5,159 nucleotides of DNA from Candidatus Brocadiaceae bacterium (GTDB lineage: Bacteria; Planctomycetota; MHYJ01; JACQXL01; CAKKQI01), in NCBI GenBank assembly GCA_919901895.1, contig CAKKQI010000477.1, positions 1 to 5,159 of the forward strand, read 5' to 3'. Position numbers and translations under genes: made by a program. Position 1 is the stretch's first letter, and every line of letters begins with the position of its first letter. A model generated the notes under the pieces. The model saw only the letters and a list, made by a program, of their open reading frames with translations. It was not told the DNA's origin and ran no database searches. This document shows positions 866 to 4,255 of this stretch, one piece after another.

Positions 866-1735
866 TTATAACGAACCGACTTTATTAATATTATCTTTCA
901 ATTTATAGTTATAGGTCCGGTCTGCGCCGCATTTATCCTTTAAAACGCTGGAAACATCGGAAACCGATGCCTCGCTCAGACCCATCTCCTTGACGATGTT
1001 ACGCCGATAATACTTCATATATTTGAAATTAGCTTTATTGCCTTCTACCATCATATAATCCAAGTTGAGATAAAAGACATGCGGCTTAGTATTCTGCTCC
1101 GGTTTCAGGACATGAACCGGTTTAGTTTTTATAAGCCGAGCCACTTCGCTTTTGGGGTCAAGCATATTACCGAATACCCTTGACTTACCGATACAGGCCT
1201 CAACGCAGGCCGGTTTCAGGCCCCGGTCAATCCGGTGCACGCAAAAAGTACATTTATCGGCAGTTTTTCTGGAAGGGTGTGCAAAACGCATATTATAGGG
1301 GCAAGAAACCATACAATACTTGCAACCGAGGCAACGGTCTTAATCCACCAAAACGATTCCATCTGGTCTTTGATAAGTTGCATGAACCGGGCAGTTACGA
1401 TTACAGATAGGGTTCTCGCAGTGATTGCAGAGCATCGAAGTGAAACCACGAGTAACCTGCGGATAGGTGCCGCGTTCCACATCCTTTACCCAGGTCCGGT
1501 TAAAGCCCAGAGGAACATTATTTTCCTGCTTACAAGCAACCACGCAGGCATTGCAACCGATGCATTTTTTCAGATCAATCACCATTGCGTAACGCACTTT
1601 TGAGGAAGGTCCGTTTTCACCCGTGCCGGCAAATAATTTTAAGGCCGACGGCAAAGTGGCTAAACCAACAAAAGTTAACCCGCCCAACTTTAAAATTTCC
1701 CTCCGCCCCATCGTCTTATTTTTAGGTTCATCCAT
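866..1735 (-). pseudogene. Tat-exported four-[4Fe-4S] ferredoxin subunit (PsrB/TtrB/DsrO type) interrupted by one in-frame TAA
   Basis: This is the electron-transfer partner of an NrfD-type membrane subunit. The ATG at 1735 is chosen because GGAGGGGG (1748-1741) lies 5 bases before it. Residues 8-36 form a Tat signal (GRREILK followed by a hydrophobic stretch), so the protein is expected outside the inner membrane. Sixteen cysteines fall in four groups: 58/61/64/68, 103/106/111/115, 135/138/141/145 and 162/165/177/181, enough for four [4Fe-4S] clusters. Codon 132 (1342-1340) is TAA, and the same frame then continues with intact motifs for 157 residues to a second TAA at 866. The visible pieces are therefore 1340-1735 (131 aa) and 866-1339. 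Relatives usually have Glu, Gln or Lys at this place, so a single base change explains it. In this family clusters are built from cysteines of different motifs, so either half alone should fail. Nonsense mutation, sequence error or readthrough are all possible. Family assignment is firm; whether it works is open. Confidence 0.85.
1340..1342 (-). other. In-frame TAA inside the ferredoxin gene
   Basis: The minus strand reads GTG GAT TAA GAC CGT TGC. The stop falls between the second and third cysteine groups and there is no frame shift. CAA, GAA or AAA would each give a normal residue after one base change. TAA also ends rex, the barrel gene and this gene itself, so a general reassignment of TAA is unlikely. 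UAA is not known to be decoded as selenocysteine or pyrrolysine. Confidence 0.9.
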
Positions 1736-1740
1736 AAATT

Positions 1741-1748
1741 CCCCCTCC
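1741..1748 (-). promoter_or_regulatory. Ribosome binding site of the ferredoxin gene
   Basis: GGAGGGGG on the minus strand, followed by AATTT and the ATG at 1735. It decides the start. The longer open frame reaching up to 1846 runs through a GC-rich hairpin and has no such site. Confidence 0.8.
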
Positions 1749-1814
1749 ATCTTCGTTTTTAATACTAGTATCCGTCTATAATACCGTTTAATGATTTTAT
1801 CGGAACAGGTAAAT

Positions 1815-1843
1815 CTCCCCCCGATAAACCGTATCGGGGGGAG
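1815..1843. terminator. Strong 12-bp hairpin between barrel and ferredoxin genes
   Basis: CTCCCCCCGATA-AACCG-TATCGGGGGGAG is a perfect 12-bp stem with a 5-base loop, 24 bases after the stop of the barrel gene. Seven Ts (1846-1852) follow it on the plus strand, the shape of an intrinsic terminator for plus-strand transcripts. On the minus strand, where the genes lie, only ATTTA follows, so termination there should be weak or partial. It could separate or dose barrel and ferredoxin expression, protect an mRNA end, or be one of the palindromic repeats seen elsewhere in the window. Confidence 0.55.
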
Positions 1844-1867
1844 CATTTTTTTACCTTTTCAACACCG

Positions 1868-3155: not shown

Positions 3156-3237
3156 CACTATCACTTATCTCCTGCGGTTCCTATTCACCGCGTCCGTACG
3201 TCCCGATACAATCGGGGCACTAACGTTATCACCTCCC
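3156..3237 (-). repeat. Pair of imperfect 18-base direct repeats flanking two hairpins
   Basis: On the minus strand AGGTGATAACGTTAGTG (3234-3218) and AGGAGATAAGTGATAGTG (3173-3156) match at about 14 of 18 positions with one gap. Between them lie the hairpin CCCGAT-TGT-ATCGGG (3216-3202) and the hairpin GCGGT-GAATAGGA-ACCGC (3191-3174). The arrangement could be a structured leader RNA of the barrel gene or a small mobile repeat. I tried the common riboswitch consensus motifs I remember and none fits. Confidence 0.4.
3202..3216. repeat. CCCGAT-N3-ATCGGG palindrome
   Basis: A perfect 6-bp dyad with a 3-base centre (ACA on plus). The same core, CCGAT-N3-ATCGG, recurs at 3319-3335, inside rex (3435-3447) and inside the EBP gene (4815-4827), each with a different centre. 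Confidence 0.6.
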
Positions 3238-3273
3238 TTCACCAGTTTTTGTTATCACGATTCGGCTTCGCAG

Positions 3274-3297
3274 TTCGGCCCTGAGCTCACTGCCGAA
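3274..3297. repeat. 24-bp near-perfect palindrome centred on TGAGCTCA
   Basis: The outer arms TTCGGC and GCCGAA and the centre TGAGCTCA are all symmetric. Only the two base pairs between arm and centre mismatch (CC against CT). There is no T run, so it does not look like a terminator. It resembles, from memory, the dispersed CTGAGC...CGAAGG type of bacterial palindromic repeats. Confidence 0.6.
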
Positions 3298-3306
3298 GGG
3301 CTCACC

Positions 3307-3348
3307 GCCCCGAGCCTGCCCCGATTCGATCGGGGCCTGCCGAGGGGC
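3307..3348. repeat. Nested GC-rich palindrome downstream of rex
   Basis: The inner stem GCCCCGAT/ATCGGGGC (3318-3325 and 3329-3336) has a TCG loop. An outer stem GCCCC/GGGGC (3307-3311 and 3344-3348) encloses it. No T run follows on either strand. It shares the CCGAT-N3-ATCGG core with other elements in the window. Confidence 0.65.
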
Positions 3349-3385
3349 TGTGAAATCACTCACGTATCATTAAAAAAAATAGCGC

Positions 3386-4219
3386 TTATTCTTTTGGTTC
3401 GTCTTCCGATTGTTCTTCTTGTGTTACGCCTACTCCGATAGAATCGGGCCGCCCATTTGGGCGAGCCTCGCCAAAGGCGGGAGTTATTCCTGCTTCACTC
3501 TGTTCCGGTTGTATGGGTAAAGGTTGGGACAAATAATACGATAAACGTGCTAATTCAGTCGCGACATCCATATTTAAAACTTTAATCCCGGCCGGGACGA
3601 CTACCCGAGTTGGGGCAAAATTTAAGATAGCTTTAATACCGGACTCAAGTAATACATTAGTAACCTCCTGGGCGGCCTGGGCTGGAATCGTGAGTATGGC
3701 CATCTTGATGCAGCCGTCTTTAAGTTCATCTTTAATAGTTTGAATATCTTTTATTTTCAACCCGGCGCTCGCCTCCCGCCCGTGAGGGCGAGGTTCGCCC
3801 ATGGCGACGCCTTCGCGAGAGCGAAGCGGGCAGGTATTGCCTATTTTAGCCGGGTTGCTGTCAAATACTTGGGTAATATTAAATCCCTGGGAATGCAAAC
3901 CTCCGTAAGATAACAGGGCCGTTCCTAAATTACCGACTCCCACCAAAGCGATCTCCCATTCCCGGTCAATTCCCAGTATTTTCAGCAATTTTTGTTTTAG
4001 TGGTTCAATATTATAGCCGCGGCCGGGGGTCCCGAATTGTCCGAAGTAAGTCAGATCTTTTCTAATCTGGGCCGCGGAAAAACCGGTTATCTCGGCTAAC
4101 TCCTCTGATGAAATAACTTCATTACTTCTTGATTCAGCCAACACGCGGTAATACAAAAATAACCTCCGTACGGTTAATTCAGGAATTTTTTTGGAACTAT
4201 TTTCTTTTTCAACCACCAT
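3386..4219 (-). CDS. rex: Redox-sensing transcriptional repressor Rex, with two in-frame palindromic inserts
   Basis: Rex dimers sense the NADH/NAD ratio and leave DNA when NADH rises. The 277-residue product has the Rex winged helix at about 10-85 (KKIPELTVRRLFLYYRVL, then SAAQIRKDLTYFGQFGTPGRGY), a Rossmann domain starting with GVGNLGTAL at 94-102, the FD pair at 119-120 and the family blocks ILTIPAQAAQ and ILNFAPTRVVVP. Two parts are foreign. Residues 130-151 split the usual KIGNT-AGLK region, and the C-terminal tail after LSYYLS (226-231) carries a related block at 247-260. They contain GEPRPHGR and GEARPNGR, each encoded by GC-rich palindromic DNA. The ATG at 4219 is chosen although no Shine-Dalgarno is visible; a TTG at 4255 would place the first codons in the sigma-54 promoter. 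The predicted transcript then starts only about 9 bases before the ATG. Typical Rex proteins have about 210-220 residues, so the inserts and tail explain the extra length. Likely soluble and cytoplasmic. Confidence 0.93.
   Translation of the reverse strand: MVVEKENSSKKIPELTVRRLFLYYRVLAESRSNEVISSEELAEITGFSAAQIRKDLTYFGQFGTPGRGYNIEPLKQKLLKILGIDREWEIALVGVGNLGTALLSYGGLHSQGFNITQVFDSNPAKIGNTCPLRSREGVAMGEPRPHGREASAGLKIKDIQTIKDELKDGCIKMAILTIPAQAAQEVTNVLLESGIKAILNFAPTRVVVPAGIKVLNMDVATELARLSYYLSQPLPIQPEQSEAGITPAFGEARPNGRPDSIGVGVTQEEQSEDEPKE
3440..3481 (-). repeat. Palindromic insert in rex, copy 2 (C-terminal tail)
   Basis: It encodes PAFGEARPNGRPDS (residues 247-260). The DNA contains the dyads CGCC-TTT-GGCG, GGCGA-GGC-TCGCC, CGCCC-AAAT-GGGCG and CCGAT-TCT-ATCGG on the minus strand. 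The 24-base core at 3449-3472 matches the core of copy 1 at 19 of 24 positions, with most differences in loops. Confidence 0.7.
3767..3832 (-). repeat. Palindromic insert in rex, copy 1 (inside the Rossmann domain)
   Basis: It encodes 22 extra residues (130-151) between KIGNT and AGLKIKD, where ordinary Rex proteins run straight through. It contains VAMGEPRPHGREAS (138-151). The core at 3776-3799 has the dyads CGCCC-TCAC-GGGCG and TCGCC-ATG-GGCGA nearby. The 66-base length is a multiple of three, so the frame is kept. The insert is much richer in G+C than the surrounding rex sequence. Confidence 0.7.
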
Positions 4220-4238
4220 ATTCGTTATAACAATATAC

Positions 4239-4254
4239 AGCAAATAATGTGCCA
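4239..4254 (-). promoter_or_regulatory. Sigma-54 (-24/-12) promoter of rex
   Basis: The minus strand reads TGGCAC-ATTAT-TTGCT, an exact match to the sigma-54 consensus TGGCAC-N5-TTGCW with correct spacing. The conserved GC of the -12 element is at 4241-4240, so transcription should start near 4228, just before the rex ATG at 4219. The gene immediately upstream encodes a sigma-54 activator, the protein class such a promoter requires. Confidence 0.75.
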
Positions 4255-4255
4255 A

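Follow-up and report, generated by a model that had tools for sequence, protein, structure and literature searches.

The two related segments within the rex gene of a Candidatus Brocadiaceae bacterium are copies of one GC-rich palindromic repeat that is scattered between and inside genes of the source genome. The repeat forms a dispersed family, occurs in frame in conserved genes, and is absent from the relatives examined at the same sites. It is probably a small mobile element that multiplies non-autonomously and, by prediction, gives flexible surface loops to the proteins that it enters. Palindromes that code for protein are known chiefly from the obligately intracellular Rickettsiales and, in the form of tagged REPs, from scattered species. 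The family described here carries no tag; it is found in central enzymes of uncultivated bacteria, numbers dozens of copies in a genome, and occurs as traces in other phyla.

Two copies of the repeat in rex

rex encodes the redox-sensing repressor Rex and lies on the minus strand at positions 3389 to 4255 of the window, the whole 5,159-nucleotide stretch of DNA that was analyzed. Its longest open reading frame (ORF) encodes 289 aa, with the Pfam domains PF06971 and PF02629. The true start is likely an ATG 12 codons inside this ORF, giving 277 aa; residue numbers in the initial annotation were counted from that internal ATG. Copy 1 is a 63-nt insert (3767 to 3829, minus strand) delimited by alignments with relatives and homologues. 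It encodes the 21 residues PLRSREGVAMGEPRPHGREAS, placed by alignment against relatives at residues 143 to 163 of the 289-residue ORF, and contains an exact match to the core pattern, GGCGAACCTCGCCNNNNNGGGCG (3777 to 3799, minus strand). Copy 2 (3435 to 3483, minus strand) consists of the two-hairpin repeat and an adjoining CCGAT/ATCGG hairpin (3435 to 3447), encodes part of the C-terminal tail, and also contains an exact core match, GGCGAGGCTCGCCNNNNNGGGCG (3450 to 3472, minus strand). The resemblance between the copies described in the initial annotation was reproduced: 8 of the 14 positions agree between the peptides VAMGEPRPHGREAS and PAFGEARPNGRPDS, as do 19 of the 24 bases between the DNA cores (3776 to 3799 and 3449 to 3472, minus strand). 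Most core differences had been assigned to hairpin loops, and three of the five lie in the 4-nt loop, with the other two in the central junction.

Alignment of Rex with its relatives, proposed earlier as a check, gave a clean absence of copy 1. Exactly 21 residues are missing in six of six relatives or paralogues aligned, and the stretch between the anchors, 23 residues long here, has a length of 2 in all 119 other homologues listed (the best 120 of 5,997 hits). The second Rex of the source genome (contig C386) also lacks the segment in the alignment. The proposal that rex holds two in-frame inserts stood for copy 1, which splits a conserved segment and keeps the frame, but not in full for copy 2, which splits no conserved segment because it is located in the variable C-terminal tail. 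The tail with copy 2 is absent or different in the six relatives aligned. The 69-nt stretch holding the copy 1 insert is 73.9% GC, versus 43.4% for the remainder of rex. As single-stranded DNA, copy 2 folded better than 200 of 200 shuffles (z, -3.2); the fold of copy 1 was unremarkable (z, -1.6; 13 of 200 shuffles as good).

A structure model, likewise proposed as a check, placed the insert in a low-confidence loop of an otherwise Rex-like fold. In this AlphaFold2 model, built on a 42-sequence alignment (mean pLDDT, 82.9), residues 131 to 153 (numbered from the ATG) form coil between confident beta strands at 113 to 120 and 154 to 158. Mean pLDDT was 67 and 58 in the two 10-residue blocks containing the copy 1 insert and about 50 in the C-terminal blocks with copy 2, and the model still matched Rex crystal structures (best E value, 6.3e-24). 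The copy 1 insert is predicted to be a flexible loop.

Other hairpins were observed around rex. A second family, with CCCGAT/ATCGGG arms, lies between genes at 1815 to 1843, 3200 to 3219, and 3317 to 3339, and at 3435 to 3447 beside rex copy 2; several core copies, e.g., the one in the guaA insert, contain hairpins of a similar kind. The intergenic stretch downstream of rex (3240 to 3350) is dense in GC-rich hairpin repeats of the CTGAGCTCACTGCCGAAGGG type, which are unlike the core. Elsewhere in the window, a 4Fe-4S ferredoxin-like gene (866 to 1846, minus strand) is split by a TAA just before its cysteine-rich motif into two same-frame ORFs (866 to 1312 and 1340 to 1846) and represents either a pseudogene or a sequence error.

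A dispersed repeat family in the source genome

The genome search with the rex core called for in the initial annotation identified a dispersed repeat. With up to three mismatches allowed, the degenerate core GGCGARSCTCGCCNNNNNGGGCG matched the 2.5-Mb source genome 61 times on the forward strand and 59 times on the reverse strand. One site can count twice among these 120 places, the 23-base core being near-palindromic. A reversed-pattern control gave 6 and 3 matches, 9 in total. Among the 100 of these 120 places that were listed, at least 27 were exact, both rex copies included. The initial annotation had named two outcomes that would speak against it, a segment carried by Rex orthologues across the phylum and a core with no other copies in the genome; the Rex relatives examined lacked the segment, and the core was dispersed. 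Chance resemblance and an ordinary Rex loop were ruled out by the genome-wide core counts together with the 119 homologues that lack the insert.

Copies were characterized in a sample of 61 contigs comprising 460,848 bases (48 with listed matches, 12 others, and the window), which contained 50 exact 13-base cores and 11 with one mismatch. In 37 aligned copies, the left arm CCCGCC, the center, and the right arm GGGCGG are conserved and the loops are free, giving a unit of about 33 nt, CCCGCC-N3-GGCGAGSCTCGCCC-N4-GGGCGG. The unit comprises two hairpins joined by a GGCGAGSCTCGCC palindrome and is often part of longer mosaics with other hairpins. A known RNA family was ruled out as the identity of the repeat, as no Rfam family scored above its gathering threshold in the window, and phage carriage was ruled out by the absence of exact matches to a strict pattern in viral_contigs.

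Copies within open reading frames

ORFs were assigned on the 61 contigs by greedy choice of the longest ORF, with frame-broken genes outside the counts. By this measure, 41 of 61 cores (exact and one mismatch) lay inside ORFs of at least 60 aa, and 29 of the 50 exact cores lay inside ORFs of at least 100 aa. Greedy choice overstates these counts, since most frames stay open through GC-rich palindromes and some ORFs run to the end of a contig, and several in-ORF copies near ORF starts may be upstream of the true start. Cores were under-represented in genes: ORFs of at least 100 aa held 58% of exact cores versus 85% of bases, as expected if most in-gene insertions are harmful. In-ORF copies occurred in all three phases. 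The remaining 21 exact cores, which fell outside ORFs of at least 100 aa, had on average 5.3 of six frames open, compared with 3.0 of six for 1,000 random same-length stretches outside such ORFs, an excess explained in part by the GC content of the repeat. Since most frames are open in these copies, an insertion with a length that is a multiple of three is usually readable.

A Pfam scan of 20 core-bearing proteins found a family in 17 at an E value of 1e-4 or below, 16 of them over the curated cutoff. The hosts identified include carbamoyl-phosphate synthase, where the core falls within the linker joining the two halves of the enzyme, EPSP synthase, transketolase, GMP synthase, TsaD, and a RadA-like ATPase.

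Inserts in other conserved proteins

Insert lengths ranged from 33 to 63 nt, as single or small composite units. GuaA carries a 39-nt insert, and the corresponding 13 residues are missing in three of three full-length relatives aligned, the split-type GuaA of other members of the order standing outside the comparison. RadA carries a 48-nt insert whose 16 residues are missing in six of six relatives aligned. In TsaD, 33 residues around two cores are missing in three of three relatives aligned (with the G002 copy left out). In these alignments, the inserts in Rex, GuaA, RadA, and TsaD are equally clean. AroA, transketolase, and three further proteins have gapped, less clean inserts. AroA was aligned with five relatives (a sixth locus, L231, was left out). 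At site 1, the relatives are without 6 to 13 residues, with a loop length that varies among the five; at site 2, 39 to 58 residues are missing, and one relative (L230) has its own, shorter segment there. At the transketolase site, the six relatives are without 11, 11, 11, 11, 3, and 1 residues, and two of the six carry another insertion in the same loop. In the best PDB match, all nine proteins queried from the source genome were gapped or unaligned at a core or immediately next to one; in the ABC exporter the gap directly precedes the core, and the one at AroA site 1 is small.

TsaD (locus L105, G000:C395, ORF 17 to 1369) also has a second, unrelated 48-residue insertion (residues about 334 to 381) that is built of the repeated peptides SVISHQ and ITDYRLPIT and is absent in the three relatives aligned; it is reminiscent of heptamer-type DNA repeats. 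The TsaD of a same-order relative (locus L167, G004:C3) carries its own unrelated peptide, SPSPSPLPHGERVGVRG, at another site. This last peptide suggests that several repeat families enter genes in this order.

The repeat in other genomes

At up to one mismatch, the core had at least one match in 35 of 59 relatives. The same-order planctomycete MAG G006 had 108 matches (52 + 56; control, 0). Another member of the order, G003, had a moderate count (7 + 9; control, 0), the counts for same-order G001 and G004 were low (2 + 4 and 3 + 1), and the remaining relatives mostly had 0 to 4 matches each. Counts were above controls in G023 (8 + 11; control, 1 + 3), G058 (8 + 8; control, 1 + 2), and G044 (5 + 2; control, 0 + 1); nearly all matches listed for these three contain a mismatch and have varied arms, and on these features they are read as probable chance matches.

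A strict 32-nt pattern was found in 26 stretches across species genomes, a scan that may leave out the source genome. Twenty were in the Planctomycetota MAG Yes70-35, and one each was in MAGs titled Elusimicrobia, Caenarcanales, Bacteroidetes, Melainabacteria, Curtissbacteria, and Sungiibacteriota. G006 and Yes70-35 share ORFs on several contigs and were taken as one genome. There, 8 of 10 core-bearing ORFs scanned have a Pfam family, and hosts include MutL, ribonucleotide reductase, PBP transpeptidase, and KDO-transferase domains. The six MAGs titled as other groups had 3 to 11 looser core matches each (control, 0), and the core lay in an ORF of at least 60 aa at 20 of 27 loci and outside at 7. 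Hosts in these MAGs include 60KD_IMP (YidC-type), Pth, topoisomerase I, RecG (two copies), ScpB, and a menaquinone-biosynthesis protein. All three copies in the Bacteroidetes MAG are within 20 residues of an ORF start, and comparison of the Sungiibacteriota Pth showed an unaligned stretch after residue 140 and no clean gap.

A bold reading of these occurrences, less likely than not, is that a single untagged palindromic family has entered several phyla (Planctomycetota, Elusimicrobia, Bacteroidetes, the Melainabacteria/Caenarcanales group, and two CPR lineages), repeatedly in frame in housekeeping proteins, and acts as a cross-phylum mobile supplier of peptide segments. Such a family would be moved by machinery not yet described. 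Contamination or convergence, instead of horizontal spread, may lie behind the copies in other phyla; five listed core sites of the Melainabacteria MAG lie on one contig longer than 500 kb, which argues against contamination in that MAG.

Mobility of the repeat and alternative explanations

Each copy would arrive by insertion from another copy, most likely by means of a hairpin-recognizing single-strand (Y1/HUH) transposase that acts in trans or has since been lost; a trans-acting HUH transposase is the leading candidate for the mover. Frame-breaking copies in needed genes would be purged and in-frame ones would remain, their peptides presumably tolerated loops and not selected parts. The genomes behind this mobile-element reading are fragmented MAGs, with no strain pair that has filled and empty sites, and the edges of the rex and guaA inserts are blurred at the nucleotide level relative to the nearest relatives, such that a target-site duplication is not readable. 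Transposition of the core repeat is inferred, with no transposase or target-site duplication tied to it in the source genome and the loci examined.

The only Y1 transposase found in the source genome is a 160-aa Y1_Tnp (RAYT-like) gene on contig C364 (about 15000 to 15800; locus L151), with GTAG-tagged hairpins on both sides; there were 12 Y1 matches in six genomes, and 6 of the matches were examined as loci. The C364 locus probably constitutes a REPtron whose own GTAG REP family is distinct from the core repeat. A rather unlikely alternative to the mobile-element reading, though the strongest of those considered, is that the core derives from REPs of the same genome and is copied by the C364 enzyme or by a Y1 class with another foot. 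In addition to the C364 gene amid its GTAG hairpins, this alternative draws on the frequency of GTAG-tagged GC-rich hairpins (42 in 461 kb versus 5 in one shuffle), some with stems that resemble the outer arm of the repeat, e.g., GTAGC-GTCCCGCC-TTT-GGCGGGAC. The tetranucleotide guide stands at the hairpin foot, and Y1 class 3, mainly from Planctomycetes, Acidobacteria, and Proteobacteria, has atypical structures and a CnGA foot, according to the portion of PMC6006769 available. GTAG was the strongest hairpin head but not the only one, as seven other four-base heads also exceeded the shuffle (11 to 28 versus 2 to 6). The cores themselves showed no GTAG tag: GTAG/CTAC was within 40 nt of 7 of 50 cores versus a mean of 9.4 in random windows, and no GTAG position was among the conserved columns of the 37 aligned copies. 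The six Y1 loci examined (about 1.5 kb on each side, one locus shorter) contained no exact cores. Membership among GTAG REPs was ruled out on these grounds, with no GTAG at the hairpin foot and no copies flanking the Y1 genes examined. CGTC REP membership was also ruled out, with a CGTC/TGTC/CCTC head plus AT within 40 nt of only 7 of 50 cores (a count without random control). Bare CGTC/GACG and GGAG/CTCC were enriched near cores, each at 27 of 50, versus random means of 18 and 15.7, respectively (maximum, 26 for both), which may be explained by GC-rich DNA.

It is improbable that the repeat is kept for a function, such as RNA stability or gyrase or protein binding, with its presence in genes selected. 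Such roles have been proposed for REPs (PMC3733652, available text), and copies are relatively denser outside ORFs, but those inside occupy many unrelated proteins in all three phases with no shared position, and the window holds no Rfam family over the gathering score. More improbable still is that templated (quasi-palindrome) mutation produces the palindromes in place and that they are alike only by convergence on GC-rich stems. The freely variable loops, the short stems, and the several hairpin families side by side would fit such an origin. Against it, 50 instances of the same 13-nt core with similar arms occur in 461 kb, a longer stretch is identical in five copies whose flanks partly differ, and the strict pattern recurs at low copy in unrelated genomes. 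Finally, short-read assembly or binning artifacts around repeats are a very improbable source of the in-gene copies: the MAG has 509 contigs, and several copies are at contig ends (C90, C144, C332, and C428), but the verified inserts keep the frame and join the two halves of the right protein, and the same is seen in another MAG of the order and at the five listed Melainabacteria sites.

The many natural pairs of filled and empty sites bear on how proteins absorb new segments and on what machinery copies an untagged hairpin. For annotators, peptides such as GEPRPxGRE, GRASPxxAG, and xASLAxGG inside a protein may be repeat-derived.

Comparison with known systems

A literature search of titles and abstract beginnings among open-licence papers returned no description of this core repeat family. 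The initial annotation had likened the element to the Rickettsia palindromic elements (RPEs), as a coding-compatible palindrome of a different sequence family. The likeness is borne out by in-frame copies in several conserved genes, in all phases, and by the dispersed core, and the difference in family holds by description; the account is extended by copies outside the source genome and outside Planctomycetota. In the available parts of PMC2229807 and PMC10969869, RPEs are described as dispersed palindromes between genes and in frame within conserved genes, where they add tolerated extra peptides. Wolbachia palindromic repeats are comparable in-gene palindromes (cited in PMC2229807 and mentioned in PMC3733652, in the text available). 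The core repeat is likewise dispersed between genes and in frame inside conserved ones. In contrast with RPEs of 105 to 146 bp (PMC2229807, same portion), its unit is about 33 nt and its inserts 33 to 63 nt. It also has hosts other than those of the RPEs and Wolbachia repeats, and is set apart from both by their descriptions, not by consensus sequences.

Intragenic GTAG/CGTC REPs are known from Opitutus terrae, R. conorii, and Thioalkalivibrio, where they contribute 20 to 30 or more residues to known proteins and at times occur twice in one gene, and tagged REPs are reported from Planctomycetes too (PMC3733652, excerpted). The core repeat similarly forms small hairpins, single or grouped, inside known proteins. 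Unlike these REPs, most of its copies have neither a GTAG tag nor a CGTC-AT head, and it is a two-hairpin mosaic. Untagged REP families exist, and many more are likely, according to the same excerpts of PMC3733652. Bacterial MITEs are non-autonomous palindromic elements of roughly 100 to 200 bp that are sometimes fused in frame to genes (PMC2229807, available text). The core repeat resembles untagged REP-like elements and MITEs, e.g., enterobacterial RU, in being palindromic, in frame in genes, and putatively non-autonomous; compared with MITEs, its units are far shorter, and with blurred edges it has no recognizable terminal inverted repeat with target duplication. Among known in-gene palindromes, the core repeat is a new untagged family, with no GTAG tag and no CGTC layout.
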